Assembly (NCBI GenBank): GCA_022606425.2
Contig: JAHDVF020000992.1
Span: 744,001-808,000 of the forward strand
DNA length: 64,000 nucleotides
Direction: 5' to 3'
Source: Lepidostoma basale
Taxonomy: Eukaryota; Arthropoda; Insecta; Trichoptera; Lepidostomatidae
In this document: piece by piece, positions 4,326-52,090 of the stretch
Layout: the number at the start of each line of letters is the position of its first letter
Position numbering within the stretch: position 1 is the first letter of the stretch
Position numbers and translations under genes: made by a program
Notes under the pieces: model-generated
What the model saw: the letters and a program-made list of their open reading frames with translations, nothing else
What the model was told of the DNA's origin: nothing
Database searches by the model: none

Positions 4326-4680
4326 GGACGCTGGCATCGACAGACCAATTTGTCGAGACCAGCGAGCCTGGCGAAACCGGTCAATATCGAAATAAATACA
4401 ACACTAAAAATAGTTTAAAAAAACATACTTAATAATTAAATAAAACGATGCATTTTAACTACTTCCACTTTTGTCTTTATTTAGACAGCGACCGGTTTCG
4501 CCAGGCTCGCTGGCATCGACAGACTGGTCTGGCCAGCGAGTCTGGCGAAACCGGTCGCTGTCTAAATAAAGACAAAAGTGGAAGTAGTTAAAAAACATCG
4601 TTTTATTTAATTATTATTTAAAATGAACTTCCATCAAGAGATTTCAGTAAAATCATTTGATTATCTTAAAAACATACTTA
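4326..4680. repeat. Family-alpha hammerhead-like palindromes, two nested copies
   Basis: A broken head-to-head pair (4326-4435) runs into a near-perfect palindrome with arms at about 4431-4514 and 4532-4618. Each arm carries the alpha core: ccagcgag hairpin closed by ctggc, then gaaaccggtc. The outer right flank ends with the family's terminal block ttcagtaaaatcatttgatt (4645-4664). The + copy in the second palindrome lacks the CTGTCGA box because it is cut at the palindrome centre. Confidence 0.75.
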
Positions 4681-4739
4681 TTTATCGTATTTCTTCATTA
4701 TTTAAAATAAGCTTCTAGAACAATTATAACAATATTTTT

Positions 4740-5026
4740 ATTATGCCGAATTTATTTATCTGGGAAGCATGTTTACAAGAGACGGAAGAATGGAGAAAGA
4801 CATTGAAAGAAGGGTTGGTGTTGGGAGCAAAATAAATGGTGATCTCAAAGTCATCACTTCAAATAAAATTATATTCACTGAACTAAAGATGGCAGTAAAA
4901 AATGGAGTTCTAGTGCCAACCCTAAAGTATGTGAGTGTTAGAGCTGGCAAAAGAAACGAGACTTAGCACTGTGGCGATCCATTATTTCTGCGCCCCTTTG
5001 AGGAAACGACGTGATGGTTAGTTTGT
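4740..5026 (+). mobile_element. LINE-A fragment with large internal deletion
   Basis: The first part matches the LINE-A block GSMFTxDGR...IERRVGVG...VKNGVLVPTL (frame from about 4769). After about residue 58 the sequence jumps straight to the LINE-A 3' end (tggcgatccattatttctgc ... gaaacgacgtgatggttag). About 400 bases present in the copy at 6313 are missing, so this is a deleted relic. Confidence 0.8.
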
Positions 5027-5080
5027 TATGAATTTATTTTAAGAGATTTCAGTAATATCATAAGATTATCATAAATTATC
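5027..5080 (+). repeat. Family-alpha 3' terminal fragment
   Basis: The agagatttcagtaatatcat and aagattatcat blocks match the terminal sequence of family alpha (compare 11705-11735). No hammerhead-like core is left. Confidence 0.45.
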
Positions 5081-5399
5081 TCGATTGCATTTTTACTGTA
5101 TATAATATATTTATTTCAGATAAATTTATATCACTTAAAAAAACATTTTTAACCCGAAACTTTGTCTGAAATAATCAAAATAATGTTAGTAAACCACAGC
5201 TGTCGAATCCAGTTCATTTATCACAACGAAAAACCTTTATTGAGTCACGCCATCGACACTAAGAATATCGTTCGTTCCGCGTCTAAGAAACAACCCTTTG
5301 TTGGCACGTTCTGTATAGAATATAATATAATTATGTACCAAGGCAAGGTGTAAGATCACCTCAATATATTGATTATTCCCCATTACGGCGATACATTAA

Positions 5400-5600
5400 C
5401 GTCGTCTGTGCTCAGATCAAAGGGCTAAGTCTATCCAGATTACCGCCGCCATATTGGTGTCACGTGATGTGTGTGCGGCGATGAGGCCGTGTCCCTTAAT
5501 AGAATCCCTCCGCAGATTGATTATAGGACATTCTGAAGGAGGTGTGATCTCAGCTCGAGTTTCCACGTATCCATTCATGATTTAAATCAATATCATAGAA
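5400..5600. other. GC-richer patch with TCACGTGA palindrome
   Basis: A short patch around tcacgtga (5460-5467) shares ggtgtcacgtgat and a neighbouring gccat block with the reverse complement of 15380-15405. It could be a small dispersed repeat or a shared bHLH/bZIP-type site. No coding content is seen. Confidence 0.3.
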
Positions 5601-5927
5601 TCAATGGAGATTGACTCACTATTGCTTTTTTCTTTACGTTTATTTCACTACATCCATACATCGCGGTATTTTTCATCGATTGTTCTTACTTTTAATGTAA
5701 CCACTTTAAAAAATATTGTATTATTTTAGTGGTTTATTTTCGGTAATCATATTTTAGTATTTTTTTGCCAGTTCCATGGTGAGTTTAGTTTTCTCTATTT
5801 GAAAAACACAAATGCGTTTTCGACTTTTATCTAAGTATGTTTATTAATCGTTTCTTGGACACCTAAATAAAACTCAGATTTTTATCTTTGAAAGTGACCT
5901 GACAATATGACATATACACCTTCACTT

Positions 5928-6354
5928 TATATCATAAAACTTCTTGAAAACTGACGATTTCATCGATACTACATATAATATTATATTATATCTTGTATTT
6001 TATTATCACTTTACAAATTATTCACTCTTATATACTTGTTCATTAAGACAATCTAATGATTTACTGAAATATCTTGATGAGAATTAATCTTAAATTAAAT
6101 GTTAAATAAAAATTTAGGTAGCATGTTCACAGCGGATGGCATATATCATAAAACTTCTTGAAAACTGACGATTTCATCGATACTACATATAATATTATAT
6201 TATATCTTGTATTTTATTATCACTTTACAAATTATTCACTCTTATATACTTGTTCATTAAGACAATCTAATGATTTACTGAAATATCTTGATGAGAATTA
6301 ATCTTAAATTAAATGTTAAATAAAAATTTAGGTAGCATGTTCACAGCGGATGGC
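5928..6354 (+). repeat. Exact 214-bp tandem duplication
   Basis: Positions 5928-6140 and 6142-6354 are identical base for base by eye (period 214). The unit includes a family-eta fragment (gacgatttcatcgatact), a reversed family-alpha terminal block, and the first bases of the LINE-A copy (gcatgttcacagcggatggc). The second unit continues into the long LINE-A fragment while the first is cut off. Perfect identity in old repeat DNA means a very recent event or an assembly artefact. Confidence 0.9.
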
Positions 6355-6951
6355 CGAACGGATAGTGAAATCGAAAGAAGGGTTGGTGTGGGTAAAAAAG
6401 TGAATGGAGCTTTAAAAATAGTCATTGGAAACAAGAATTTATCAATGAAAGCGAAAACGGCCGTTCACAACGGAGTTCTGGTCCCAACCCTAATGTATGA
6501 AAGCAAAGCATGGAGCCGGCAGAAGAAGGATGAAAGCAGGATTAATGCGGTAGAAATGGGGTCCTTAAGACGTATGTGTTGTAGAACGATATAAGACAGA
6601 ATCTCAAATGCTGATATAAGAAAGGAATGTAGAGCGTAAGAAGGTATTATGAACAAAATTATGGAAGGATCGCTGCGTTGGTTCGGACATATAAAGCGCA
6701 TGGATGGAGAAAGAATGATTAAGAAAGTAAACGTTAATGATGTAAATGGAGTACGGAGTCGAGACAGACCGAGGAAAACATGGCATGACCAAATTAATCA
6801 AATTTTAAAGGTTGGTCATGTTAGATGTCGGAAGAATCGACGTGCGTATATGACTGACTATATGAATGTGGAGGAATCTAGAGAGGTGTGCCAGGATAGA
6901 GTAGTGCGGCGGTCCATTCTCTCTGCCTACCCTTACGAGGAAACGGCGTGA
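6313..6951 (+). pseudogene. LINE-A reverse-transcriptase ORF, C-terminal 213 codons, two nonsense codons
   Basis: One frame runs from 6313 to the stop at 6949-6951, broken by taa at 6592-6594 and 6637-6639 with no frameshift. It contains IERRVGVGKKVNGAL, VHNGVLVPTLMYES, LRWFGHIKRMDGERMIKK, the RPRKTWHDQINQILK box and the ending YPYEETA. This is the RT thumb and C-terminal tail of a non-LTR retrotransposon; an RTE/BovB-like clade is my guess, not shown. The catalytic RT motifs and endonuclease are absent through 5' truncation. The 3' end (ggaaacggcgtgatggtt) is shared by the SINE2 elements of this window. It is the best LINE-A copy here and serves as reference for the others. Confidence 0.88.
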
Positions 6952-6989
6952 TGGTTTGTTGTTCTGGTTGTTAAATGTTTTTCTTATTA

Positions 6990-7172: not shown

Positions 7173-7189
7173 TTATTAACTATTTCCTC

Positions 7190-8985: not shown

Positions 8986-9034
8986 ACTTCAATTTTCGCC
9001 ATAACTTGGTGTTGCGTATGTTTAATGTTTCTTT

Positions 9035-10790: not shown

Positions 10791-11400
10791 AAATTTGAAG
10801 AATATTAAGTATTTCCCATCTATGAAGATCATTTTGAAACACCATGTACCATTGAGATATGCCTATACTCGTATATTATACATAGTTAGTATTCCCCTTT
10901 CTCCTGTACTGTGTGAGACTTTTAATGACAATATTCTTCTGTCATTAATCGGGTAAAACTTTTACAATTCTTTCCCGCGCGCATTTATCGGTTCTGAATT
11001 CAATATTCAAAAGAAACGAATCTGCGGCCGTAAATTACATTCCAGGTCCGGACAGAGCTACGAGGCGCGGGTGGATTGCTCTTTTTCTCGGTGGAAATCG
11101 GGACGGAAATGAAGACTGGCGCCCAGGGTCGGCAACGACTTATGCCATTTTATATATTTACTGAGTACTTGATTTCTTAAAATTGAAATTTAGGAACGTT
11201 TCACCGTATTGAAATTTACCTCAAAAAACTATTCTGTTTATATATTTGTTAATATATTGAATAAAAAGGTGAGCATCAATGTTTTACCATGTAAATAATA
11301 ATAAATATAGTTTTCATATGAACCACTCACTTTGTAGTTAGACATTTTAAACTTATAGATAGAAAATAATAAAACACTTTGAATTTAACCACGGTATGGT
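10791..11400. other. Noncoding stretch with a short GC-richer patch
   Basis: No gene seen. Around 10970-11140 the base composition rises in GC without any coding signature or match to other repeats in the window. Confidence 0.45.
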
Positions 11401-11407
11401 TATTATT

Positions 11408-11515
11408 ATTGATGCCAACTAGTTTCGCTTAGACCCAAGCTTCACCAGGGCAATATAATAACTGTTATATTGCCCTGATGTAGCTTGGGTCCAAGCGAAA
11501 TTAGTTGGCATCAAT
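11408..11515. repeat. Family-epsilon palindrome with two hammerhead-like folds
   Basis: Arms 11408-11458 and 11465-11515 form a near-perfect hairpin with a 6-base spacer. The + copy (11471-11510) reads tgcc, ctgatgta, the agcttgg/ccaagc hairpin, gaaa, then ttagttggca. The - copy has ctggtga, the same hairpin, gaaactagtt and ggca. Stem I (UGCC with GGCA) closes in both; stem III in the - copy is the palindrome ACUAGU followed by U. This is the clearest full hammerhead-type fold in the window. Confidence 0.75.
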
Positions 11516-11587
11516 TTTTTTTTAATTAAAACTTAGTTGAATGCAAAGTGTGCTATTATTTTATATCTATTAGTTTAATAAATATGG

Positions 11588-11735
11588 CCAGTCTGTCGAT
11601 GCCAGCGAGCCTGGCGAAACCGGTCGCTGTCTAAATAAAGACAAAAGTGGAAGTAGTTAAAAAACATCGTTTTATTTAATTATTATTTAAAATGAACTTC
11701 CATCAAGAGATTTCAGTAAAATCATTTGATTATCA
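11588..11735 (+). mobile_element. Family-alpha unit with 12-bp target duplication
   Basis: A single 148-bp unit runs from ccagtctgtcgatgcc to gatttatcatt-like end gattatca. It is flanked by the identical 12-mer taataaatatgg at 11576-11587 and 11736-11747. The hammerhead-like core is at its very 5' end (ctgtcga, gccag/ctggc hairpin, gaaaccggtc, gctg). A target duplication this long suggests target-primed insertion rather than cut-and-paste. Confidence 0.75.
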
Positions 11736-11766
11736 TAATAAATATGGATTATAACGTAAATTTGAT

Positions 11767-11865
11767 ATTGACTTAGCAAAGCGATATTATGTTCACATGT
11801 CATTCCCATTAAATATAATTAGCCTTCTAGAAAATATACGTTTTCATTCGTATTAATTAAATAGT
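11767..11865 (+). repeat. Family-eta fragment
   Basis: Contains acttagcaaagcga, acatgtcattccca and then gaaaatatacgttttcatt, the three blocks of family eta (see 32885, 39464, 51942). Confidence 0.6.
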
Positions 11866-12655
11866 ATACACTTATTCCGTTAACCTTAACAAAATATTTT
11901 TATTTTATTTTCTCAACTAAAAAAAGTATTAGCCGGGTATATTAAAATGCTCGCGGTGCAAGGAGATAGTTTTTACTTAAATGTCTGTAGTGGTTTGAAT
12001 TTCTAAGTCGGGCCTGCCAGCTATAGGCCAAGATCTTCATCCAATGCGACGATTATTTCAGGGTGAAAATATAATGCAAAAATTCTTATTTTAAAAAATG
12101 ATATTGATTACAGTATTTATGATAAAAAATTAATTTACATATTTCTTTTTTAGCTTTCTGAAAAATTCAATTATTACTTATGATACAATAATCGCATTTT
12201 TATTTTAAATATTTGTTCCTCCCTTAGTTAACAGATACAATTTCAAACCACAGACAAACGCATATTTCATAAAATTCCTCTTAAATCAATTATTACTATT
12301 ATCTATTCTAATTATTTTTATAAACCAAATTTGTTTAACTTTATTATTAATTGATGAAAATGTTATTATTTGATAATACTCTTATATTGTCAAATATCTC
12401 CCACCCATGAAATATAAGATAACTTTCGGAAAACTGTTATTTTCATCAATATTAAACCCTTAAATACTAAACAATCAATAACTTTATATTGAGTCTTGTA
12501 TCCCATTTCACGCAACATTTAATCTAATGTAGTTTTTTTTCTAAGACGTTTCATTATGAAATTATTATCTCTGTTTCCAAATAAATACAACCAACATTCG
12601 TGATAGTGGAAGTTGTTCAGGGATGCAATATCAATGTTATGATTCTTTCTAATTC
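11866..12655. other. AT-rich noncoding stretch with eta remnant
   Basis: No gene seen. 12400-12470 holds a weak family-eta match (ttttcatcaatatt block). The rest is unassigned. Confidence 0.45.
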
Positions 12656-12659: not shown

Positions 12660-12955
12660 AATAACAACAAATCATCACGCCTTTTTCGGAAGGAGTAAGG
12701 ATCCTGACACACATCTCTAGCTTTCGCCACATTCATACAACGAGTCATACTCGCACGTTGATTCTTCTAACATGGCCGACCTTTAAAATTTGATAAATTT
12801 GGTCATACCGTGTTTTTCTCGGTCTCCCACGACTCCGCACTCCATTCACACCGTTAACGTATACGTTCTTAACCATTCTTCCTTCACCCATGGCTTCCAT
12901 ATGTCCAGAACAACAAAGCGATCCATTCATAATTTGGTTCATAATACTTTCTAGT
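12660..12955 (-). mobile_element. LINE-A 3' fragment (reverse)
   Basis: The - strand frame reads MNQIMNGSLCCSGHMEAMGE, then GVRSRGRPRKTRYDQIYQIL and KVGHVRR, followed by LINE-A 3' UTR (aaatcatcacgcc, + strand). One of about ten LINE-A copies; frame is broken near the end. Confidence 0.8.
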
Positions 12956-14019: not shown

Positions 14020-14225
14020 AACAGGTAATTTGAACCAAATTACTGTATATAATTTGTTTTTAACAATTATATTGATTCTCATGATATGTGATAGGTAGCT
14101 AATCGAGAATTCTACACCAGACCAAAGACAATGTGACAATCACACTGCCATCGCCGGGAATTGAACCCGGGACCTTCGGTATAGCAGTCAGAGCTCTAAC
14201 CATTCTGCCACGAAAGTTTTTTTTT
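14020..14225 (-). mobile_element. tRNA-derived SINE1, copy 2 (reverse)
   Basis: On the - strand the head reads ttcgtggcagaatggttag (A-box region), with a near-perfect B box gggttcaattcccgg (14155-14170). The SINE1 body follows (gaattctcgattagctacct, then tcacatatcatgagaatc). It has the best-preserved tRNA-like head of the six copies. It is a repeat, not a tRNA gene: no cloverleaf 3' half. Confidence 0.82.
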
Positions 14226-15125: not shown

Positions 15126-15660
15126 AACATGGTTACTTATAAAATTATTTTTTTCCATACTTAATCAAGCCGGAACAGTCCTGAATGTAATAAATCAAAT
15201 GATTAAAATGTGAGCTTATTTCGTGGCGCTCCGACCTGAACTGTTAGAAAGTTCCCACAGCGAATGCCGCCGTTTCGCCTTACTTACCCTCCCAACTTTG
15301 TATAGTTCCTCTTTCAGTCCTTCCTCTCCCCTCCCCCTTCTCCATCCACCAAAACACGCTTTTCCATCTAAAGTCAGTATCACGTGACACCGAATGGCGG
15401 GTTATTGTGCAGATATTAAAGTTTATTTTCCACTCGACCTTTTTTATGACAAAATTATCAATAAGAGTCGATTTACAACTGTTTTACGATTTTAAACACT
15501 ATTTTAACAGTTTATTACTGTGACGGAACTCCGGTGGGAGCAAAACCTGTTTGTTCTTAAAAACAAATAAATATTTGTTAATAAGATAATCTAATGATTT
15601 TATCGAAATCTCTTGATACAAGTTCATTTTAAATAGTCCATTATTTTGACCGAAACACTA
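15126..15660. other. Noncoding stretch with CT-rich patch
   Basis: No gene seen. 15230-15410 is GC/CT-rich and holds tcacgtga (15380-15387). A reversed family-alpha terminal block (aagataatctaatgatttt) sits at 15583-15602. Confidence 0.45.
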
Positions 15661-15677
15661 TAATATTTTAATATTAT

Positions 15678-15835
15678 AAACTGTTAAATTATATAACTTT
15701 GTTTTTATGTATCACAATTTTATTTTTATTTTTCGTGACAGCTGTTTCGTCAACATAGGTTGACGAAAGAGGTGTCGCGAAAAATAAAAATTAAATTGTG
15801 ATACATGAAAACAAAGTTTTATAATTTAACAGTTT
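15678..15835. repeat. Family-zeta palindrome with hammerhead-like core
   Basis: Long imperfect palindrome centred near 15757. The - strand core reads cgtcaacctatgttgacg (hairpin), gaaa, then the self-complementary ACAGCTGT followed by C and acg. The + strand arm has gaaagaggtgtcgcg, so its stem III has decayed. A related core lies at 40334-40378. Confidence 0.65.
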
Positions 15836-15859
15836 ATCAGTTCATTTTAAGTCATGGTT

Positions 15860-16060
15860 AAATAAAACGATATTTTTTATTAACCGCTTCCAATTATTGT
15901 CTTTATTTTGAAAGCGACCGGTTTCGCCAGGCTAGCTGGCAGAACAGTCTGTAGATGCCAGCTAACCTGGCAAAAACGGTCGCTTTCGAAATAAATAAAA
16001 CAAGTGGTTTATAAAATACATCGTATTATTTTATTATGATTTAAATTGTGTTAAAACAAT
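15860..16060. repeat. Family-alpha palindrome
   Basis: Head-to-head pair: - copy at 15910-15942 (gcgaccggtttcgccagg) and + copy at 15945-15983 (cagtctgtagatgccag, hairpin, caaaaacggtcgc). The + copy has lost the GAAA G. The outer arms carry the family flanks ending in acgat/atcgt blocks. Confidence 0.7.
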
Positions 16061-16069: not shown

Positions 16070-16321
16070 GCTTATGCATTAAACTTAGAATACACTTTGG
16101 AAATTAAAAATAATGTTGTTTATAATCCACATAATATTAAAAAACGCGACATGTTTCGGAGGATACCTCCATCTTAAGGTGTAAATATATCATTAAAACT
16201 AAACAATGAAAGACTAATAAAAACGCATTCAAAAATCGATACAGTACAAAGGAACAATACATTTAAAAAAAAATTAAATAACCTGGGCTAATTGTTATTA
16301 CAAATTATATTTTATTTTTGT
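16070..16321 (-). repeat. Family-beta hammerhead-like element (reverse)
   Basis: On the - strand the core (16144-16184) reads cttaagatggaggtatcc, tccgaaacatgtcgcg: box, ggagg/cctcc hairpin, GAAA, self-complementary ACATGT, C. Flanks on both sides match the + strand copy at 24140-24360, including a tagcccaggtta block. Confidence 0.72.
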
Positions 16322-20739: not shown

Positions 20740-20950
20740 GTAGCTTTTCACATATGTATACATCAAGTTATTTGAACCTTATTACTGTATACAACCTTTT
20801 AGTTATTAATTCTAATGACGTGTGATAGGTAGCTAATCTATCGCCATTTTATTTCCACGTGAATTCTACACCAGACCAAAGACAGTAACAATCACTCAAG
20901 ACCTTCGGTGTGGCAGTCATAGCTCTTACAACTCTGCCACGAAGGTCGCC
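20740..20950 (-). mobile_element. tRNA-derived SINE1, copy 3 (reverse)
   Basis: Head on the - strand from the ttcgtggcagagttg block (20935-20945); the B box is deleted (only ccgaaggtcttgag remains at 20898-20911). The body keeps gtgtagaattcacgtgga and agctacctatcacacgtca. Confidence 0.72.
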
Positions 20951-21729: not shown

Positions 21730-21955
21730 AAATAAACCTTAAAATGTTTGACAACAACATTTTGAATGTATACAAATTCTTGTAGACAAATACTGGATTT
21801 CACCCATTGCGGATAAATTATTTTTATTTTACAAGGATTAATTGTATCTCAATAGAGACGAAGATGCAAATTGTTTTCTGGGAACAGAAAACAATTTGCA
21901 TCTTCGTCTCTATTGAGATACAATTAATCCTTGTAAAATTAAAATGTTTGATTTC
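21730..21955. repeat. Repeat theta with perfect 55-bp palindrome
   Basis: Arms 21826-21880 and 21885-21939 are perfect inverted copies with a 4-base spacer (ggaa). The left flank (caacattttgaatgta, then caaatactggattt) recurs at 34168-34235. The arm sequence (cgtctctattgagatacaat) recurs at 34602-34621. No GAAA-type hammerhead core is evident, so I keep it apart from families alpha to eta. Confidence 0.8.
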
Positions 21956-24139: not shown

Positions 24140-24360
24140 TAATGGTTAGTACTTATAACAAATAGCCCAGGTTAATTTTTAAATTGGAATTATTGTATCG
24201 AATTTTAAATGCGTTTTTTATTAGTCTTTCTTCTTTTAGTTTTTATAATACTCGTATTTGTATACCTGAAGATAGAGGAATCCTCCGAAATATGTCGTGT
24301 TTTTAAATATATTTTTTAATAAATAGTGGATTAAACAAATTTATTTTCAATTTCCTAAGT
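24140..24360 (+). repeat. Family-beta hammerhead-like element
   Basis: Core at 24261-24300: tatac, CTGAAGA (exact CUGANGA box), tagagg/cctcc hairpin, GAAA, tatgt, C, then gtgt. Stem I can pair (AUAC with GUGU). Flanks (tagcccaggttaa; gtggattaaacaa) match the reversed copy at 16070-16321. Confidence 0.75.
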
Positions 24361-25430: not shown

Positions 25431-26235
25431 AAATCCAAAACGGCCGTGCACATTGAAGTTTTAGTACCAACCCTGATGTATGGACGTAAAGTATGAAACT
25501 TGCAGAAAAGGATGAGAGCTGAATAAATTCGGTAGAGATCAAATCAAATCAAAACAGTTTATTTCATCAATAGATTGTTAATTACAAAATTAAAGTTTAA
25601 GGCATCTTTTGAGAACAGGTAAAATTGTATATGGTATCCTAGCAGAAAGGTATGAGAGATAGTTCGACATTAGGTAGACAAGATACTCTCCAAAATCAAG
25701 AGTATTTGCCTTCTGAACGTACTAATATGAAAGAGGCCGATCTCCGAGGAGACCGCGTTCAGCAGATTAATTGCTTTTCCCACCGGTGTCACCAGAAGCA
25801 CGTTAGTTCTGGCGCCCGGAAGATGAGATGAGATCCCTAAGACGTATGGGTACTAAAACGACATACGACAGTATTTCAATTGCTGATTGAAGGAAAGAAT
25901 GTAGAGCGAAAGAAAGTATTATGAACAAAATTATGAAAGGATCACTGCGTTGGTTTGGACATATGAAACGCACAAAAGACGAAAGAATGATTAAGAAAAT
26001 ATACATCAGCGGTGTGATTGAAGTACGGAGTCGTGGGAGACTGAGGAAAACTTGGCATGACGAAATTAATCAAATTTTAAAAGTCGTCCATGTTAGAAGT
26101 CGGAAGAACCGACGTACATATATGACTCGCTGTATGAATGTGGAGGAAACTAGAGACATGTGTCAGATAAGAGTATGGGAGTATGTGTGGCGGTCCATTC
26201 TCTCTGTCTACCTTTTCGTAGAAACGGCGTGATGG
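25431..26235 (+). mobile_element. LINE-A fragment interrupted by another repeat
   Basis: Left piece 25431-25535 (VHIEVLVPTLMYGRK-like, then degenerate). Right piece 25825-26232 reads MNKIMKGSLRWFGHMKRT, RGRLRKTWHDEINQILKV and ends VYLFVETA with the stop at 26230-26232. The two halves were split by the repeat at 25537-25822. Frames are broken on the left only. Confidence 0.83.
25537..25822. repeat. Repeat inserted in LINE-A, aatcaaatcaaa end
   Basis: Starts with atcaaatcaaatcaaaac and a tttaaggcatctttt block shared with 4060-4165, and ends ctggcgcccgga. It contains a GC-richer 3' half (cggtgtcaccagaagcacg). It interrupts LINE-A between the gcggtag and atgagatccctaag blocks. Family not recognised. 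Confidence 0.6.
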
Positions 26236-26945
26236 TTTGTTGTTTGCATAATACTTTACTGTCTTTCATTATGTTCTCAATATTCTTGTGATTTATTTTA
26301 TCTATACGTAAAAAAAATCTCACACGTCTTTGAAATCTTCAAACGCAAGTGTAACGCTTTACGCTGTTGTTATTTTCACTTGAGAAGTGCTAAACACTTT
26401 AGAAGTTGAAGCTAACAACTTTCCGGATAAGTGTTACATTACATCGCGTGTAACACCCACTCCGGTCAACTTTAACAATTTCCTGATCCTCCGAGCTCCA
26501 CGCGGCTCACACGTGTCCCGCGCTACCAGTTGGCATGTCCCGTCTGATGTTTTCAATTTCAGATGCGAGATCTTGCTAAAATGAAATAAAAAAATCGAAA
26601 CTGAAGCGCACGTATCGGAGTATTGTATTACGTGAGTACCCTCTGCCGTATGAGCACACTCGCGTCAGCGCTCCGCGGCTCTGAGCTGCCATATTAGATT
26701 ACCCCGTTATTGACAAGATACAGTTTTAATGGCTGGTTTTCCTTTGACATTTTCCCGCCGTCATCAGATCCGCGTTTTATGTGTTAAAAACAAAAAATAT
26801 ATATAAATAAAATTGCTAACTTGAGTGTGTTTGTTTTTTTTTTTTTTTGCTACGGTCCCAATATATTGTACTATATAGTCTAGGAAACAATTTAAGAAAT
26901 AAAAATAGTTTAAATATTATAATTGCGTAGATTTTCACGGTTGGC
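26236..26945. other. Noncoding stretch
   Basis: No gene or family member recognised. Somewhat GC-richer at 26440-26720. Confidence 0.4.
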
Positions 26946-26950
26946 AGCAA

Positions 26951-27120
26951 TATGTTTGGTGTGTTTTTGGGTAACACCGTGTGATAACTCCTTCTCGACC
27001 GACGTTTCGGAGATCGTTGCAGTCTCCATCTCCACAAAATGATGGAGACTGCAACGATCTCCGAAACGTCGGTCGGGAAGGAGTTATCACACGGTGTTAC
27101 CCAAAAACACACCAAACATA
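26951..27120. repeat. Family-delta palindrome, 80-bp arms
   Basis: Arms 26951-27030 and 27041-27120 pair with a single mismatch (t/c near 26995) across a 10-base spacer. Each arm carries a core: atgatggagactgc (+, 27038), ggaga/tctcc hairpin, GAAA, ACGT, C. The CUGANGA box is cut by the palindrome centre. The near identity of the arms suggests a young or gene-converted palindrome. Confidence 0.82.
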
Positions 27121-27299
27121 AAAATAGTTTAATTCTTAAATGAATCCTTTGTAAATCTAATATACTAATTTACCTTTATATTGACACGTTTATTGTTTTT
27201 TCCAAAACTTATTATTTAGGTAACTAATTACTTATAATCGGGGAATTATTCAAAATAATTTCGATAAGTTTACCAAATAATTTTTCTCAAATCTATGTT

Positions 27300-27580
27300 A
27301 ATGTTCATTTTAAATAAAATTATGTTTCTTTAAGAACTACTTTCACTTTTTGACTTTATTGCAACAGCAACCGGTTGGATGGTTCTGACTTGGTACTGGT
27401 TAACCAATCTGTCGATGCCAGCAAGCCTGGTGAAACTGGTTGCTGTCGAAATAAAGACAAAAATTGGAAATCGTTATTAAAAAGTAAATTCGTTATTCAA
27501 AAAACATTGTACTTAGAAAAAAAAGGTTTAAATGCAAAGTTCTTCATACCCAAACTGTGACTAACTATTTAACCCTTTAT
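27300..27580. repeat. Family-alpha pair, diverged
   Basis: A weak reversed copy (caacagcaaccggttgg, 27362-27378) faces a better + copy (27405-27447: ctgtcgatgccagcaagc, ctggtgaaactggttgctg). The box and hairpin are kept, with GAAA and a degenerate stem III. Confidence 0.65.
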
Positions 27581-28080: not shown

Positions 28081-28084
28081 TATA

Positions 28085-28560: not shown

Positions 28561-29225
28561 AGCTTTAAATTATATTTGACCTTTTACGCTTTTTATTAAT
28601 TGTTTAATCCAAATTCACTTTTTCTATTGGACCCTAAATTAAATGAGTGACGTGTATCAAAAACTTGCGGTAAAACTTGTATCAATGAAATTAAAATATA
28701 ACTTTGTATAATTTTGAGTCAAGTGTCTGTTTTACCTTAAAAGCGCTGTTAAGATACAACTCCGGCGAGATGTATTGATGTTCCCATTCAACTTCCATAA
28801 GATAATTCTGTTTGTTTTGCGTTTAATGTTTTATGACAGCAACCATCGATCAACGCCAGAAGGCGAGCAGAAAACGTCGGCTCCGTCGAGATATCGAGAC
28901 GTGTTTTATTATAGACCATTCTATATTGCTCCTCTGTGTTTATTAAATTTTATCTCCTTCATTCCGTAAAGTGCAGCCAAGATACTCAATATATTACGCT
29001 AAACACAAAATTACATTCTCTTCTTTCATATCGATGGCATTTGGATTTCCGAGAATCTAATGATGAAATAATTTTGTGCTGGAGTGAAACTGATATAATG
29101 AGTTTATGTAAATATTCTTGGGTAAAAAATATATGCTAACGAATACATTCTTGAACAATATTATTTTCTTTAAACACAACACTTTATTTTTATATATAAA
29201 TAAATTGAAAATTACGCATTAACTC
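28561..29225. other. Noncoding stretch
   Basis: No gene or family member recognised. Confidence 0.4.
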
Positions 29226-33689: not shown

Positions 33690-33880
33690 ACAACAACAAA
33701 CAACACGCCCTCTCCCCGTAACGGTAGGCAGAAAGAATCGACCGCCACGTCACTCTATCCTGACACACCTCTCTAGCTTCCTCCACATTTATACAACGAG
33801 TCATACATGCACGTGGATTTTTCCGACTTCTAACGTGATCAACCTTTAAAATTTGATTAATTTGATCATGCCATGTTTAA
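33690..33880 (-). mobile_element. LINE-A 3' fragment (reverse)
   Basis: On the + strand: aacacgccctctccccgtaa, gtaggcagaaagaatcg, then cgagtcatacatgcacgtgg and the block matching the LINE-A KVGHVRSRKN codons. Short and frame-broken. Confidence 0.78.
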
Positions 33881-34149: not shown

Positions 34150-34645
34150 ATTATCAAAAAAAAAATTCACAACATTTTGAATGTTTACAAATTCTTGTAG
34201 ACAAATACTGGATTTTACCCATTGCGGATAATTTTTTTTTATTATTACTTGTCCAAGTAGGCATAAAAATTGGAGAGACATCTCCAGGCGTAATCTAGTA
34301 CTGTATGATTTGCAGAGACTTTCACAGTGCATTAATAAAGATTTTCTGCTTAATGCTTCTCAATCTTAATAGATGACGCTAGTGTAGAGTGAACTAAAAA
34401 ATGTAAATATAAGCGTGGGATTCTAGCATATATATATATATACAAGTTCCAAAAATTGGCAGATGTGGTGGTCAAAAAAGGGCGGAATGGGGAATGTTGT
34501 TACACATAAAGCGATCGCTCAAACCAACCAATGACAGATCATAAGTCCTGTAAGCGCCTCGGCCACCACGTTCTGTTCCCAGAAAAACAATTTACATATT
34601 CGTCTCTATTGAGATACAATTATTTCTTATAAATAAATAAATAAA
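34150..34645. repeat. Repeat theta, split by ~310 bp of other sequence
   Basis: Left part (34168-34240: acaacattttgaatgttt, caaatactggatttta) and right part (34565-34640: cccagaaaaacaatt, cgtctctattgagatacaat) match 21755-21940. Between them lies about 310 bp not found at 21730, including gtggtggtcaaaaaagggcg. Confidence 0.65.
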
Positions 34646-34739
34646 TTATTTCGTATATTATAAAGATATTAAAATTGTAAATTAGAACATTATTGATAAA
34701 TAAACAATAATATATACGCGATGATTGTATTATTTGAAA

Positions 34740-35734: not shown

Positions 35735-36606
35735 TGGTGTTTCGGAAAGTTCGGTCCGTTGTTTTGTATGAAAATTACATTTATTTGAAAGGTAAAATAA
35801 AAAAAAACACATCAATCAAAATATTTTCCATCGTTAGCCACTACTTTTTCCATCTTTCTGGCAATAGATGAATCCATCGTCAAAAAACACCTCGTCTTTT
35901 GAGGAAATTCGGACATCGACCCAATTCTTGACATCTGCATATGAATTGAAATGCTGTTCTTCCAAAGCATGCGTCATGGATCTAAACAAGTGGTTGTCCA
36001 ATAGTGACACGTCTGGTGAATTAGGCGGGTGCGGTATGATCTCCCAACCCACATTTTGTATTTAGTTTTTGACCGCGATTGGGGTGTGAGGTTGTCATGT
36101 TGAAGAAACAGCTTGCTGTGCCTGTTGCCTGTTGCCTCATTCTGATCGTTTTTCTGTCAGTGCTTCGTTTAATTACATTGGTTGTTGTCAGTAGACTTCC
36201 CCAAAACCGTTTCATCCGGTTTGAGAAGTTAATTTTCGGTCTTCCAGGGCGATCTTTACGTCAACGCTAAAATCACCAGCTTTGAAGCGTCTATACCATT
36301 CTCTGCGTGATTTATCCGAGGGGGCATGATCGACATAAACTTCCAAAACATTTTATGCGCCTCAGCTGCACTCTTCTTCCAATTACAACAGAACAACAGA
36401 ACTTCCCGCAAATGCTTCTTATTTACTATGAAGTCGACATTTTAAGGAGCGATAAAACAAATTTTGTTGTGAGAATGACAAACATTTGCGAACTGAGCTT
36501 AATTGATGGATGCTCAGTCTCACTAAAAATAATGCACGCCAGATTTGAAGGCTTAAACCATCCAGAGCCCTCTGTTATAAAACGGACCGAACTTTCCAAA
36601 ACACCT
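35735..36606 (-). pseudogene. Defective mariner transposon (reverse)
   Basis: Terminal inverted repeats ggtgtttcggaaagttcggt (35736) and accgaactttccaaaacacc (36586-36605) lie next to TA on both sides. On the - strand, transposase pieces are readable: an N-terminal REWYRRFKAGDFSVD block (near 36260-36310), a catalytic-region piece (36021-36215), and a C-terminal GWEIIPHPPNSPDVSLLDNH block (from 36052), which keeps the mariner PHPP-x-SPD motif. The element is ~870 bp against about 1.3 kb for a full mariner. It has an internal loss of several hundred bases and frameshifts and cannot encode a working transposase. Confidence 0.88.
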
Positions 36607-41099: not shown

Positions 41100-41690
41100 A
41101 CTGTTAAAGGAATTAATATCGTATATTTATGTAACTACCCATTTTTTATCAAGCCATTCGAAATATTTATAAGTTTCTGGGTATACGAATAAAATTACGT
41201 GCTTGTTTTTATTTGTAATATTCTCAGAAATGGCCCATTGAGACGAAATTAAACTATATTTCAAGCTTTTTATTTTCCCATTTTCCCTCTCTTTAAAACC
41301 GTGACTCGAGAAGTCATACAAACACAATGGATTTATTTATACAAGCATTTGAAAAACATTTCAATGACAATGATTTAGCGTTATCGACGAAAACATGGCG
41401 CCGGGAACCATGTTAAATTAATTCATTTTCAAAACGACGTATTCTAAATTCAATTACAACCCAACTTGACAGATGATTGCATTTGATTCCTCAAAGGTTA
41501 GTTAAAAAAATAAACGCTACTCCATTTTAAATTTCATGTTCATCTCAATAGGGTAGTGAAATAATATAATACAAATACTTAAATTAGATCAATTTCTTAA
41601 ATTGCAGACAAAATGTTTAAAATATCTTATCTTATTTCTTATATATACGCCATACGTTGTGTTGTTAGGATGGTTTATTTCTCTTTTTAT
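41100..41690. other. AT-rich noncoding stretch
   Basis: No gene or family member recognised. Confidence 0.4.
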
Positions 41691-41696
41691 TTTTTA

Positions 41697-41885
41697 TGTA
41701 CTTTGTATATATAACACTTAAATTATTTTTTTTAATTTACATAGACATGTATGTATCACTGAAGAATCACTGAAGTATGTATCGTATGTATAGAAATATG
41801 TATCACTGAAGAAGGACTGTTTGTCTGAAACGTGTGTATGTAATTTTATTTTTTTAATAAAAGTGTTTTATATTCAAAGTATATA
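41697..41885. repeat. Family-gamma palindrome with hammerhead-like core
   Basis: Arms: gtactttgtatatataacac (41699) faces gttttatattcaaagtatat (41865-41884). The + core at 41806-41840 reads CTGAAGA (exact box), aggac/gtct hairpin, GAAA, ACGTGTGT (self-complementary with G-U pairs), A. A partial ctgaag repeat lies just upstream (41769). Confidence 0.65.
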
Positions 41886-41889
41886 ACAA

Positions 41890-42575
41890 AAGAAAAATAG
41901 AAATATCATATCTTTTTTTTTTTTAACTTCTCTTTAAACTAAGCTGAGCGCTTGCTCTCTAGAGTCGAATCTACGTTAGGTGAATCTAAAACCAAACAAT
42001 ATGTCTCCAAGATCACCATCTATTATATACTTGTACTACTACGGGATTGAATTTTTTTCCATACAGATTCTATTTGAAGAAAATTTAATATGACCAATTC
42101 AACGATACTTTATATACACATTAGATATATTTAGAGCAGTACTATTTTATACGTAGGAAAATATCGTAATATAAATAGCAACAATATTTATTTAATAAAA
42201 CATGACAATGTGATCAGTTAAGTCTTTGGCAAGGGGCTGATCATCTGAGTCAACGTATTTCCCTCATATGAATTTTGGTGATCGGTCATCGCTTTGGTAG
42301 TATTTCAACAGGGAACAATCTACGAATACCTACAGAAGTATAACTCAACATAGGAAACATTAATAACTATTGTATCCCTTATTTTGAATATTAAAATTGT
42401 TCTCCAGGTACATTAGAGGCCGTGCTTTTAAGGTTTAAGGCTTACACAAATTAGGATTAAAGTGCTCTATTGTATTATTGGGGCGTTGAACACATTTCCA
42501 CAGTGCCTCAAAATAATTACTATACAAAAATGGAGAAACACAAATCATTTTATTTAAAATTGAACTATAATTAAC
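41890..42575. other. AT-rich noncoding stretch
   Basis: No gene or family member recognised. Confidence 0.4.
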
Positions 42576-42577
42576 GC

Positions 42578-43527: not shown

Positions 43528-43740
43528 GAGAAAAACTTATGAAAAACTGTTACTTTATTGCCATTGTGAAACTAATTTCATTATCAACCATAAAAAATGT
43601 CTCATCACAAAAGTCTAGGTGGTGTTTTGGTGGAAAAAATGCATAGTTACTTCCGATTATGGTATGGGACATTGATTTACAGGCATTATTTTAGGGTTTT
43701 TTTACACTCAAGATGATTTTAAATATCAAATACTAATAAT

Positions 43741-44215
43741 TATTAAATAAATCGATATTTTTAACTTCTTCCACTTTTGTCTTTATTTCGACAGCGACCG
43801 GTTTCGCCAGGCTCGCTGGCATCGACAGACTGGTGACACTATTACAAACAAAGTCCTTTATATACATACAGATCTGGGATGGTAGTCCTTAATGACCAAT
43901 TACTGTTTGCTTCCTCCACGTTAATAACAAACAAATAAAAAATATTCCTGAAATCGATTACTGTCGAAAAATTGTTTTGTTTGATTCCAGACCTTTACAG
44001 TTATTATATTTCCCCATCCATAATCGATGAAGGCGATGCCAACTTAATGGATAAGGACTCAGTTTGGAATAGTGTCACTAGTCTCTCGATGCCAGTGAGC
44101 CTAGCGATACCGGTCGCTGTCGAAATAAAGACAAAAGTGAAAGAAATTAAAAAAACATCGCATTATTAAATTTTTTAAATATAGATTTCAATAAAATCAT
44201 TTGATTATTAAAAAC
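43741..44215. repeat. Family-alpha composite palindrome, ~475 bp
   Basis: Reversed copy with complete core at 43790-43833 and + copy at 44079-44121 (ctctcgatgccagtgagc; gcgataccggtc). The arms share agtcctttatatacatac and an aatagtgtcac block. The + copy reads GATA in place of GAAA. Layout is the same as 28085-28560. Confidence 0.78.
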
Positions 44216-45140
44216 TAACAATTAAACTTTCACTAATTTAGTTATCACATTAACGCGTTGAAATAAATTGTAGTCCATTTTTAAAAAGAGCAGTATTAAA
44301 AAAATGAACTTGACTATATAAACAAATTAAATTGATTGAAAATACTACTATCCGCATATATTTCAAACGTAAAAACCTATAGCCATAAGACATTGTATTT
44401 TACGATACCTGCGTGTGACGTTATATATTATGGACGCCCATAACTACGAGTGGATACAAATATATAACCTACATACATACTTGAAAGGGGGTTCATAGCT
44501 AGAGGTTACTACTAGCTCTGCTTCAAATAAATTATGATGAAAATATGAATTACTTTGTATTTATTATATAATAAATACAAATACAAATAAAAAAATAATA
44601 TAAAAAAATTAAATGATCAAGAAATGAGGTTGAAAAAGATATATTATTCTTATGGTAAACAAAGAGTGACCTATTTTGATTATATCGAAACCCATATTGT
44701 TTTTTTTTAAATGCAAATCAAAATTTTATTTAAATTTCTGAGATATTGGTATAAATACATAGATATTTGAAAAAACATATAATAAATAAAAAAAACATAA
44801 ATATTTATTGAAAATTATCAATTCGTAACTATCAAAAACTACATTAAGTTTATTTTGAAATGTAGTAGCAATATGAATTTTTATTTAAATATTAACGTTG
44901 ATGATTTTTTTAAATGTTAAAAGTTATTATTGTTGAATCGTGAAATTGTTTTTTTAATTATAAAAACTAACAATAACTTAGTTTCAAACAAATTAATTTC
45001 ATTTACAAACAAAATATGTAATTTAGAAAATTTCTTGTGGAGAGTAAATAATTTATTAAATTTCAAATTTTCACGTTCGTGTTAACCGCATAATTACAAA
45101 AGTCTTATTACCTCACGTAACATTGTCGTTTTTGTTTCAG
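44216..45140. other. AT-rich end of the intron upstream of the first visible Shaw exon
   Basis: Strongly AT-rich, with no gene or repeat recognised. It ends in a good acceptor: tcgtttttgtttcag (45126-45140). Confidence 0.7.
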
Positions 45141-45821
45141 ATAATCGGTGTGATATCGGTGTTCTTCATCTGCGTGTCCATCCTGTCGTTCTGCCTCAAG
45201 ACGCACCCAGACATGCGCGTGCCCGTCATCAGGAACATCACGGTGAAGACGGCCAACCAGAGCAAGGGCTGGGTGCTGGACAAGACCCAGACCAACGCCC
45301 ACGTGGCCTTCTTCTACATCGAGTGCGTGTGCAACGCCTGGTTTACACTGGAGATCCTCATCAGGTTCATCTCCTCGCCCAACAAGTGCGAGTTTATCAA
45401 GTCGTCAGTCAACGTCATAGATTACATTGCTACTCTGAGTTTCTACATCGACTTGATCCTACAGAAGTTTGCTTCGCACGTGGAGAACGCCGATATTTTA
45501 GAATTCTTTTCAATTATAAGGATAATGAGGTTATTCAAGCTCACGAGGCACTCCTCCGGGCTGAAAATCCTTATCCAAACATTCAGAGCATCCGCGAAAG
45601 AGTTGACGCTTCTCGTGTTCTTTCTCGTTCTGGGCATTGTGATATTCGCGAGCCTCGTGTACTACGCGGAAAGGATACAGGCCAATCCCCACAACGACTT
45701 CAACAGCATTCCCTTAGGCCTATGGTGGGCTCTGGTAACCATGACGACCGTGGGATACGGGGACATGGCGCCCAAGACCTACGTCGGGATGTTCGTCGGA
45801 GCCCTCTGCGCCTTGGCAGGG
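45141..45821 (+). CDS. Shaw: Shaw (Kv3-type potassium channel), core exon S1-S6
   Basis: This 227-codon exon encodes the membrane core of a voltage-gated K+ channel, which conducts K+ out of excitable cells as a tetramer. In order it holds the end of S1 ([19 protein letters not shown]), S2 ([20 protein letters not shown]), S3 ([16 protein letters not shown]), the S4 voltage sensor ([18 protein letters not shown], basic residues every third position, 45513 onward), S5, the pore helix and selectivity filter TVGYGD (45747-45764), and the start of S6. The wording is Shaw-type rather than Shaker, Shab or Shal ([27 protein letters not shown]). The exon is bounded by tttgtttcag and gggGTAAGT and is phase 0 at both ends. 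The open frame continues a few codons into both introns, which are not coding. T1 domain and start codon lie upstream of the window. Confidence 0.95.
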
Positions 45822-46570
45822 GTAAGTACTCGGAGTCGTCCACTTTCTCTTTTCTTTTTGTATAAGATTTAAGCAATTAACGTTACACAAGAATATAGCC
45901 CAAATGGGCACCCTTCGGGAAATCAAGATTTTCAGTTCCTTTTCAATTTCAATACAATATTAAACATTTGATTCTTTTCTAATTTTGCAAAATCATTTTG
46001 AATAAAATAGGAAATATATTCATTTTCATTTTTCAAAGCCGTAGCCTATTCTGCTATCACCTTTCATCGTTATCCTTTTATTTTACTCAAATTAAACTTT
46101 TTTTAAATTCAGCCATCTCCTAGAGTATTTATTTATAAATTTATCTTTTTAATAAATTCTGAGATACACTCAATTTTTTGATGAATATTGATTATTATTG
46201 CTATCATGATTGCCTATATACGGGAGTATGTAGAGTCACAAGTTCAGGCTAGTATTACAGGTTAACTTGAACTGTTCGATCCAATAGTGATTCGTTTTCA
46301 CATTCTTTCCTGAAAACAGCGCATAACCTGATAACAGTTTAATTTTTCTTTGTTTCTCATATTTCTATCACTTGGTAGAAAGGCATTGTATAATGAAATA
46401 CTGATTGAATAAATAATGAAGTAATGTACTCGTAAGGCAAATTTATGCGTCCTCTTTAAAATAATAAAATAAATCGGGTATGCGCATTTGTAACGAAAGT
46501 ATGGAAAAAAAAGTTCAAAAGTTGTAAATATGCAGACTAATGAATAGAAGTCGGGCAAAGCTGATGAATC
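45822..46570. other. Shaw intron start, AT-rich
   Basis: Donor gtaagt at 45822. No gene or repeat family recognised up to 46570. Confidence 0.6.
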
Positions 46571-49145: not shown

Positions 49146-49148
49146 TTT

Positions 49149-49359: not shown

Positions 49360-49820
49360 CTAATCATATTATCTAGTTCATGCTTAACGATATATTAAAA
49401 AAAAATTGTAATATTTAAATTGAGAATTGTACTAAAACTTTATATATTGAATGGTTTAAGAATTAATTTTTCAAATCCGTTTACGACAACTTTATAGGAG
49501 AGAGCAAACTGAGCAGATCACACGAAGACTTGCTGTAGAGATGCTAAATTTGTTGTACCCATAGATGTGTTTTTGAATGTATGAAACAAAATAGCATTCG
49601 TAAGCTATTTTCAACCAAAAACATAGTTTATAATTTCACTGATTCCTAAGTACTCGCTAGACCCATACTTCCGACTTTTCGTTAACTGCTCAATACACCC
49701 CCAGCGCGTTTTTGGTTTTTGTAAATGCTCACCGACGTGTATTTAAATTCCTATTGGTTTTATTTTATAATGATATTATACATAATTTGAACATCTCACC
49801 AGATATCTGAAATTTTGATA
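49360..49820. other. Shaw intron, noncoding
   Basis: No gene or repeat family recognised. Confidence 0.4.
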
Positions 49821-49824
49821 ACTG

Positions 49825-50000
49825 AAAGTCCGGTTTCGATTCCATGCGATGGCAGTGTGATTGTCACACTGTCTTTGATCTGGTGTAGAATTCTTGTGAC
49901 AATAAAATGGAGATAGATTAGCTATCTATCACATGTCACGAGAATCAATATGATAGCTATACATTTTACAATTATTTGGCTCGCACTGTTACGTAAAGAT
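49825..50000 (+). mobile_element. tRNA-derived SINE1, copy 5 (5'-truncated)
   Basis: Begins at the B-box region (gtccggtttcgattcc) and keeps the body: tcacactgtctttgatctgg, gaattcttgtgacaataaaa, acatgtcacgagaatca. Confidence 0.78.
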
Positions 50001-50160
50001 CGATTCAACAAAACAATAGAAATAATAATATAGGGTTATTAAGACAAGTATTATAATAATTCTAAAAACTGACGTTTTCATCGATATTGAAAATATTTTT
50101 TTTGTGGAAACATTCAGGCAAACACAAAAACAGGTAGACAAGTCAAAAAATGCTACAAAA

Positions 50161-50377
50161 CCAACTAACTAACCAACTAACCATCACGCCGTCTCCCCGA
50201 AAGGGTAGGCAGAAAGAATGGACTGCCACACTTTAACCGATGCGGCACTCCATCCTTCTCTTTTCGCCATCGCGAGAGACGCGGTGTGATGGGTTGCGAA
50301 CCTCATCGCCACCAACAGGCATCTCCCGCGCACTTTCGATCGTTCAACGTCTACATAATAAATCTAATATATTTAAA
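50161..50377 (-). mobile_element. SINE2, long form, copy 5 (reverse)
   Basis: + strand: ccaactaactaacc tail, LINE-A-like end, gggttgcgaacctcatcgcc, then the extra 5' block aggcatctcccgcgcactt and acgtctacataataaatcta. Inverse of 49149-49359. Confidence 0.85.
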
Positions 50378-51935
50378 AAAAGGCTGAGGTATTATTATTC
50401 GCCTTCAAGTAAAAACAACATCTATCCATCGCTTGCAGAACGTTCATCTTAATAATAACAGAACACGAACAGGATGTCTGGTGCTCCATCTCCCGCAACC
50501 CTCATCCGATGTGCATCTTATAAATAGTAATTGAAATACATTATTGATTTATCGGGAAACTAAACCTTTGCTCTTCCCGAAGCGGGTATATTGCCAATAA
50601 GACCCTCGCTACACTCAATTTAAAGTTACCAGAAGCCACGAACGGTTACACATTGTATATTTTATGAACATCCTCCTACGTAAACGTAAAAACGTAGATA
50701 CGCCATTGACGTGGCTGTTCCGAGAGAGGCTTTAGTACATTTTTAATTAGCGAGGGATATCAACAAATGTGTGTCCCTGGTGAGTTTGTATTACTTTTTT
50801 TTTATAAAAGTCGTACTCGTCCATTTTATATGAAGTTTAATTTAAAATAAAGTCAACTATCTTTCGTATATCCTGTGAAGAAATATACATAAATCTTTCA
50901 CATCAAACCATATACGAGTACTTCTGAAATAGACGTTAAACCAGAATTTCATAGATCAATCATTTTGTATTCAGATAAAGCCATTTTGTACACTAAAATG
51001 AAAAAAATCAGTGCCCAGAGCAATAATGTGATACTCAATAGGACAACAGACCTCTTAAAGTTTACGATTTAAATTTTCCTTTTTTTTTTTACTTGTCAAC
51101 TTTAAATGTTTATTTTTTTTCAATGACAGACCATATTTTATTTTATTTGGGATTGGGGTGAGTTCTGGCATTGTATGTTAAATTTCAGTTAATGAATACA
51201 ATGCTTCAATAAGATAAAACGCCTGTATGACATAATCTTTGCAATAAATGGTGATGCGATCATGTCCTTTTTGGAGCAGTACCATTCGCCCATGGGCTTA
51301 TTTTTAATGTCTTGCAATATTTGAAGAGCAAAAAAAATAAGCATTTCTCCATTATCTGCAGGTTATGAGTCCTTCAAACGCAAACATCTTCGCAAAATTC
51401 CATTACTTAGACATCGACTTGCATATCGATTAGTCTCGATGTAATCAAGTCTAGGATTTCCGTATAAAAAAAATATTCGAAATAATGTAAAATCGTTGCC
51501 TTTGTATCATCATCAAAATGCATATTTACACCAGCGGCTTTTATAGCTGTATGGAAACTTTGCAGAGGAAGGTGCTGAATTTCTTATATTTATTTCAACG
51601 AAATCCCCGAATAGAACGACATCATCGTTTATAAATATAAATATGAATAATATACACATATTTTTTACACGCGTAGTAACACGACAAAAAAAATAGAGCT
51701 CTGGCTACTGGCGGTAAATAGAGCTCTGTATTACGTCAAATCAACCATTCCGAACAGCAAACTACTCAACAAGTTTAAACAAGATCTACCCGAACGGAAT
51801 TCGGGAAAAACCTTTTTCAGGAAGTCGAAACAAGATTTGCCCGAGCTAGACTCGGGCTCGTCGGTGTGCGAACTAAATCCGCGTCCGAGTCACGCTCGAG
51901 CAAAACTGTCAAGTTGTTAAAAATACAATGTATAA
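50378..51935. other. Shaw intron, noncoding
   Basis: No gene recognised. 51690-51870 is unusual: a repeated atagagctctg, and two small hairpins (ccgaacggaattcgg at 51789; gcccgagctagactcgggc at 51839). Confidence 0.45.
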
Positions 51936-51941
51936 ATTTCT

Positions 51942-52090
51942 TAATAAATACGAATCAAAACTTCCGTTTTCTAATATTTCATAAGAATGACGTGTTATTT
52001 TTTAAATTTTTCAAATTTATCAATGAAACATCTAATTTCCTTAAAATAACATGAAACTTCTATAAAACGAACGTTTTCAATCGTATAAAT
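51942..52090. repeat. Family-eta head-to-head pair
   Basis: Reversed copy (aatacgaatcaaaacttccg, aagaatgacgtgtta) faces a + copy (aatgaaacatctaatttcc, aacgaacgttttcaatcg). The + copy keeps GAAACAT. Confidence 0.6.

Follow-up and report, generated by a model that had tools for sequence, protein, structure and literature searches.

We have analyzed a 64,000-nt stretch of genomic DNA from Lepidostoma basale (GCA_022606425.2, JAHDVF020000992.1 positions 744,001-808,000), referred to below as the window and to whose positions all coordinates refer, with regard to repeats that resemble the hammerhead ribozymes of Penelope-like elements (PLEs). The original prediction for this DNA ascribed to seven repeat families, alpha through eta, a shared layout consisting of a CTGANGA-like box, a hairpin (stem II), GAAA and a short self-complementary stem III. 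Taken as a whole, that observation was partly confirmed: the layout is firm in alpha, beta and epsilon and weaker in gamma, is incomplete in delta and zeta, which are without a full box, and fails in the repeat that we take as eta. A fourth firm family, with its core at 3137 on the - strand, was absent from the original prediction.

Hammerhead-like cores in the window

We scanned both strands for a box with no more than one mismatch, a 1-nt linker, a stem II of 5 bp or longer in which a single G-U pair was tolerated, and GAAA. We observed 9 sites, whereas 100 dinucleotide shuffles gave 0.11 on average and never more than 2; a looser scan, which accepted a 4-bp stem II and a linker of 0 or 1 nt, gave 12 sites versus 0.75 in the shuffles. 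The CTGANGA box by itself was not enriched (22 matches, 17.7 expected). The shared layout of box, 1-nt linker, hairpin, GAAA and palindrome across families is real. In the cores examined, one additional A or T lies between A9 and stem II, and because the families carry this extra base, a scan without the linker and with an obligatory palindrome found 1 site only.

The 9 sites comprised 5 from alpha, 2 from epsilon, 1 from beta and 1 at 3137. Alpha cores lie at 4499-, 11616+, 28156-, 43805- and 27432+, in addition to decayed copies; those of beta are at 16157- and, in a second copy, at 24287+, and those of epsilon at 11426- and 11497+. The gamma core (41827+) enters the scan once a 4-bp stem II is allowed. 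The repeats and their target duplications, in order along the window, are as follows (R1 is a model built from 9 aligned cores and is described further below).

3110-3174, - strand: 3137 family; core CCGATGA-A-GCTCCGGCGGGAGT-GAA-ACCGTT-T, stem I of 6 bp; an inverted partner of its 5' side lies at 3388-3484 (74%).
4335-4399, + strand: alpha A0, an older copy adjoining pair A; 35.2 bits with model R1.
4432-4667: alpha pair A, head-to-head; - arm core CTGTCGA-T-GCCAGCGAGCCTGGC-GAA-ACCGGT-C; tail on the + arm; 13-bp target duplication AAAAACATACTTA at 4419-4431 and 4668-4680.
11309-11575: epsilon pair, cores 11426- and 11497+; tail on the - arm, with an ATG-led frame (MSNYKVSGSYEN); 10-bp target duplication TAATAAATAT at 11299-11308 and 11576-11585.
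11588-11735, + strand: alpha F, a single tailed arm, 5'-truncated just upstream of the core; 12-bp target duplication TAATAAATATGG at 11576-11587 and 11736-11747.
15505-15569, + strand: weak further core (R1 21.8 bits, E 0.007), a possible member of the 3137 family, a link not borne out by direct BLAST comparison.
15578-16048: alpha pair D; tail on the - arm, broken by the zeta insertion; no target duplication detected.
15633-15838: zeta pair, a palindrome centred in loop II and nested in alpha D; tail on the - arm; 12-bp target duplication AGTTCATTTTAA at 15621-15632 and 15839-15850.
16094-16246, - strand: beta copy 1; core CTTAAGA-T-GGAGGTATCCTCC-GAA-ACATGT-C; stem I of 1 bp.
24191-24360, + strand: beta copy 2; core CTGAAGA-T-AGAGGAATCCTCC-GAA-ATATGT-C; stem I of 4 bp.
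26914-27117: delta pair, a palindrome with 80-nt arms 99% complementary; tail on the - arm; 15-bp target duplication ATAAAAATAGTTTAA at 26899-26913 and 27118-27132.
27256-27492: alpha pair E; tail on the - arm; 10-bp candidate target duplication TTATTCAAAA at 27246-27255 and 27493-27502.
28087-28549: alpha pair B; tail on the + arm; TATA-like TATATAAAGG upstream of the cores; 12-bp target duplication GTATCCTATAAA at 28075-28086 and 28550-28561.
41676-41905: gamma pair; + arm core CTGAAGA-A-GGACTGTTTGTCT-GAA-ACGTGT; inverted partner at 41676-41725 (51 nt, 84%), ending near stem III by eye.
43704-44215: alpha pair C; tail on the + arm, weak tail-like match on the - arm; no target duplication detected.
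11758-11868+, 39453-39554-, 30686-30750-, 55494-55554+ and 52028-52092+: repeat taken as eta, not a hammerhead.

As the original prediction held, several families carry one-base substitutions in the box (CTGTCGA in alpha, CTTAAGA in beta copy 1, CTGGTGA and CTGATGT in the - and + arms of epsilon, CCGATGA in the 3137 family). One change is present in 4 of 5 alpha copies, beta copy 1, both epsilon arms and 3137, and two in the + arm of alpha C; among the cores examined, the box is unsubstituted only in gamma and beta copy 2. The gamma stem III listed earlier as ACGTGTGT is probably a decayed ACATGT-C, since a gamma relative at 9101- (79% identity over 86 nt) reads GAAACATGTC.

Delta and zeta had been described as full hammerhead layouts. 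No complete box was seen on either arm of these palindromes, because the centre of the pair is in loop II in zeta and in or beside the box in delta; decay as the cause of the absent boxes was dropped in favor of truncation at the palindrome centre. As for eta, for which coordinates had not been given, we have assumed it to be the repeat at 30686-30750- and 52028-52092+, which fits the position, 52090, at which the original prediction ended. Copies of this repeat have a 3' block in common; GAAACATGTC is present in one of the 7 rows aligned, or one of 5 when clear copies alone are counted. If 9101- was meant as eta, it is the gamma relative noted above, without a readable box (R1 13.9 bits, E 1.5).

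Architecture of the insertions

The account of how the repeats are organized could be refined. Alpha, gamma, delta, epsilon and zeta are mostly head-to-head inverted pairs with their 3' ends outward (alpha A through E, and one pair each of the other four); alpha F is a single arm, and inverted pairing was not seen for beta. The centres of the alpha pairs differ, the extremes being stem III and a point upstream of the TATA-like box, with variable 5' junctions and, in pairs A, D and E, with unequal truncations on the two sides. Centres that vary in this manner are what 5'-truncated cDNAs would give; a transposon with a fixed interior would not be expected to show them.

We tested the flanks for direct repeats, taking the ends of the arms from BLAST alone. 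Of the 9 loci, 7 are flanked by target duplications, 10-15 bp in length: 13 bp at pair A, 12 bp at B, 10 bp at E, 12 bp at F, 10 bp at epsilon, 15 bp at delta and 12 bp at zeta. Equally high duplication scores were obtained with 0.2-2.7% of 3000 random flank pairs. It should be noted that the epsilon and F duplications are not fully independent of each other, because F sits in the right-hand duplication of epsilon. Alpha D is split at the zeta duplication, as zeta is nested in D.

In 7 of the 8 pairs judged (A, B, D, E, epsilon, delta and zeta), one arm is ~40-50 nt longer than the other, and we refer to this extension as the tail. The tail was aligned to the 70 nt beyond the shorter arm and the match compared with that of random stretches, for 8 pairs, with gamma and 3137 outside this comparison; in those 7 pairs, 13-81% of the random stretches matched the tail at least as well as did the shorter arm. 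By subtraction, the tailed arms end ~116 nt from A9 in delta, 131-137 nt in alpha, 134 nt in epsilon and 131 nt in zeta (the start in the last being inferred), and untailed arms end ~76-95 nt from A9. In alpha F (MNFHQEISVKSFDY) and epsilon (MSNYKVSGSYEN) an ATG leading an open frame coincides with the start of the tail or follows that start closely. In delta, an open frame of 39 codons starts at the A9-U-G triplet and extends to the tail end; taken alone this is weak, as 10% of ATGs in the window are open for as long.

Two other repeats may be mentioned here. A 214-bp tandem duplication at 5928-6354, 100% identical and either recent or an assembly effect, includes 70 nt that are related, at 81%, to the alpha tail and lie on the opposite strand. 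A 126-bp near-perfect palindrome at 21820-21945, related to sequences at 34169-34248 and 34571-34649, is without a hammerhead core; the same flank search gave a 7-bp repeat only and no clear target duplication.

Pairing of the predicted stems

Stem I played no part in the core search, and its pairing is therefore a fair test of the layout. At the predicted register, stem I was of 4 bp in 4 of 5 alpha copies, in beta copy 2 and in both epsilon copies, and of 6 bp in the 3137 family, and it paired in at least 1 copy of every firm family; at least 4 stem I pairs were found at 2.5% of random places (P=0.025).

For covariation we aligned 9 cores, including 3 alpha, 2 beta and 2 epsilon copies, so that the rows are not independent; stems II and III, and not stem I, aided the choice of rows. 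In these 9 rows stems I and II are paired and stem III is a short palindrome, with stem I weak in gamma, beta copy 1 and the + arm of alpha E. Over stems I through III, 96.6% of the cells were paired, versus 24-41% when the partner was slid by 1-3 columns. Two-sided changes were present in all three helices and amounted to 29 cells versus a shuffled mean of 9.3; the number of pairs with a two-sided change was not beyond the shuffles (6 versus 5.2). The model built from these rows, R1, found 8 further alpha arms (E<=4.4e-4) and the one weak site at 15505-15569; ten more rows, at E 1.1-4.9, we have taken as chance. For all 11 copies the predicted dimer had a lower energy than two monomers, the difference being 1.8-12.4 kcal/mol.

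Relation to Penelope-like elements

The original prediction had read these repeats as hammerheads of the Penelope type with a very short palindromic stem III, many of which may be inactive. The register of stem I, the covariation in stems I through III and the anatomy of the insertions agree on this point, and the reading is supported. We consider it very probable that alpha, beta, gamma, epsilon and the 3137 family and, by their architecture, delta and zeta are short 5'-truncated PLE insertions, for which we infer an origin from one cDNA per strand. Both hammerhead remnants and Penelope insertion scars are of already known kinds.

Penelope elements of Adineta vaga are described in PMC3846280 as having inverted pseudo-long terminal repeats (pLTRs), a 31-bp tail on one pLTR, a TATA box and 8-10-bp target duplications, with a pLTR that includes the first 12 codons. 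Inverted arms, a tail on one arm and short target duplications are found likewise here, as in endonuclease-containing (EN+) Penelope/Poseidon PLEs such as Pen2a of A. vaga (PMC3846280) and PAc of Anolis (PMC11167929); the duplications here are of 10-15 bp rather than the 8-10 bp of A. vaga. Also PLE-like are the TATA-like box upstream of the alpha core and the AT richness of the target duplications (A+T being ~67% in the window as a whole), and a start triplet that overlaps A9 and stem II in alpha, beta copy 1 and delta, the A of which is 26 nt from the alpha cleavage site by our own count. The end of the delta tail, 116 nt from the start triplet, resembles the start of reverse transcription in PAc, at 111-118 nt (PMC11167929). 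According to PMC7761336, many animal genomes contain thousands of minimal type I hammerheads, which usually are without the variable part of helix III, in some cases map to the pLTRs of PLEs and may cleave in dimeric form.

The repeats differ from known PLEs in that the copies are short and truncated, belong to several families and have mostly substituted cores, and in that no reverse transcriptase (RT) or GIY-YIG domain was found in 10 fragments. Work by Cervera and de la Pena (2014) and by Lunse, Weinberg and Breaker (2017) is said to have described minimal PLE hammerheads acting as dimers. The cores in the window share with these the type I form without a closed stem III, the short A...U palindrome in stem III and GAAA, and differ from them in the change of A6 to U in alpha and in single substitutions in most of the other cores.

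Several observations weigh against the assignment to PLEs. Most of the cores examined have a single substitution, and stem I is of only 2 bp in gamma and 1 bp in beta copy 1 and the + arm of alpha E. By eye, a clean double hammerhead was seen in 0 of 11 predicted dimers. No target duplication was found at alpha C or D; moreover, the - arm of C has a 14-column tail-like match, which 2.2% of random stretches equal, so that C is ambiguous. Delta and zeta are placed by architecture and not by a complete core, and the repeat taken as eta, with GAAACATGTC in 1 of 7 rows, was rejected as a hammerhead. The PLE RT and GIY-YIG domains, which the original prediction likewise did not see, were not found in the 10 fragments scanned with Pfam; short 5'-truncated copies need not hold either of them. 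Exact patterns for alpha, beta, delta and epsilon were unmatched in IMG/VR.

The Rfam hammerhead covariance models, too, were unmatched, over the whole window at gathering score and even at E<=10, and over 281 bases with laxer filters. These models expect a closed stem III. Most of the Rfam matches listed were to families of the microRNA type, on long hairpins, and a few to small RNA, small nucleolar RNA, cis-regulatory and transfer-messenger RNA families; all were below gathering scores and are read as palindrome or chance effects.

A general PLE-hammerhead pattern applied to IMG/VR matched 40 contigs, with a stem II of at least 4 bp in 5 of the 40 matches, which was judged close to chance. 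Two of the contigs in that database, L037 (1011-1043) and L027 (6730-6763), have CTGATGAT-hairpin-GAAACGTC with a stem II of 5 and 7 bp, respectively, which is layout-like and possibly due to chance.

Origin of the head-to-head pairs

In the mechanism that we propose, each copy would retain the 3' part of a pLTR, and the complete copies would hold a type I hammerhead of the minimal kind, the palindromic stem III of which could act only as a dimer. A PLE protein with RT and GIY-YIG, acting in trans, would have cleaved the two target strands and used each to prime a cDNA. The first of these would have begun at or before the start codon, as in alpha and epsilon, and the other ~40-50 nt further in, this difference being the tail; the cDNAs, truncated at variable points, would then have been joined head to head. 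That every head-to-head pair records a symmetrical insertion, in which both strands were cut and one cDNA from each of two RT start sites was joined to the other near the self-complementary stems of the ribozyme, is a tentative proposal which we regard as doubtful. It is weakened by the ambiguity of C and by PAc, in which the RT start did not differ between the top and bottom strands (PMC11167929), which is also a point against the repeats as read here and speaks against a strict rule of one start per strand. A two-strand account of inverted PLE pairs was not found in the literature searched; the term 'inverted' in PMC11167929 refers to a blocking nucleotide.

For the joining step, self-priming is the main alternative: the palindromic stems would allow a cDNA or an antisense template to fold back and copy itself, with no need for two priming events. 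Head-to-head pairs are the most frequent PLE pairs in PMC3846280, where they are ascribed to self-priming on an antisense template, and in the window the centre of zeta falls exactly in loop II and that of delta in or next to the box, both pairs being symmetrical. Simple self-copying, however, predicts equal arms, and the tail was observed on one arm only in 7 of the 8 pairs judged; the truncations at the centres of alpha A, D and E are also unequal. Tails and unequal centres speak against self-priming as the only route, and we rate it as possible, though not likely.

We have also considered that the pairs are foldback miniature inverted-repeat transposable elements (MITEs) or other DNA transposons, moved by their terminal inverted repeats, in which the likeness to hammerheads would be incidental. 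The near-perfect palindromes of delta and zeta have this appearance, and a mariner-like relic may be present at ~35837-36260, a likeness for which Pfam gave no match in the part tested. Yet the ends are unequal in 7 of the 8 pairs judged, with the tail on one end only, the target duplications are of 10, 12, 13 and 15 bp and not of a fixed length, the alpha centres vary, and covariation in stems I through III across families would be unexpected. The pairs thus show neither identical terminal inverted repeats nor a duplication of fixed length, and we regard this origin as very improbable.

Least credible of all are metazoan retrozymes, small non-autonomous elements moving via circular RNAs from hammerhead cleavage: type I hammerheads in short AT-rich animal repeats are common to both systems, and retrozymes and PLEs co-occur in animals (PMC7229834), but the retrozymes described there are tandem repeats of ~150-450 bp with mostly canonical cores that cleave well in most invertebrates, whereas the arrangement here is head-to-head with minimal, mostly substituted cores, the exact 214-bp tandem at 5928-6354 was not picked up by the layout scan, and tandem repeats with a canonical type I core were not found in the window.

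Other features of the window

An exon resembling that of a voltage-gated potassium channel, as fits animal DNA, is located at 45060-45869 (Ion_trans, E 2.6e-41, Pfam). By eye, a frame at 56241-56672 (about 56490-56670) looks like its continuation, with an intron of ~10 kb between the two. There are many relics that we take to be of the long interspersed nuclear element (LINE) type, with frames resembling the C-termini of RTE-type reverse transcriptases (6449-6970, 25825-26250, 52785-53290, 12700-12950, 33690-33880 and others); no Pfam match was obtained with two fragments tested. The frames at 35837-36260 on the - strand look to us like a decayed mariner transposase, with no Pfam match in the piece tested. 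A dispersed repeat with a tRNA-like block (GGAATTGAACCCGGGACC...) at 3766-3826, 14157-14217, 20886-20946 and 56263-56323 may be a short interspersed nuclear element (SINE). An array of a 17-bp unit occupies 53923-54035 (6.5 copies, 97% matches).

The substituted core of alpha

Alpha is the most numerous family in the window. Its sixth core base is T and not A in 8 of 8 copies that can be aligned there (A-, A0, B-, C-, C+, D+, E+ and F, the sign denoting the arm); outside this count are B+, which is rearranged at this position, and A+, D- and E-, which are truncated. A6 is a conserved position of the hammerhead core, and its change strongly lowers cleavage. The 5' ends of the arms were considered as possible marks of ribozyme-cut templates, and this was rejected: by eye, none of the arms compared starts exactly after position 17.

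In PMC11167929, mutants of the ribozyme core were without effect on PAc insertion in vitro, the ribozyme cut only with protein added, and no RNA-seq reads started or ended at the cleavage site; PMC7761336 calls the role of PLE hammerheads unknown. That alpha is numerous despite its A6-to-U change is in line with the PAc result, in which insertion in vitro needs no cleavage. A substituted core in 8 of 8 alpha copies, in a family of about a dozen arms in 64 kb, may be viewed as natural evidence that spread needs no good ribozyme, and head-to-head pairs with one tail would be the genomic counterpart to the two-strand priming of PAc. If joining of two cDNAs near the palindromic stems is true, these stems would gain a use in DNA joining that is independent of RNA cleavage, and such a role would explain the spread of alpha despite its A6-to-U core.

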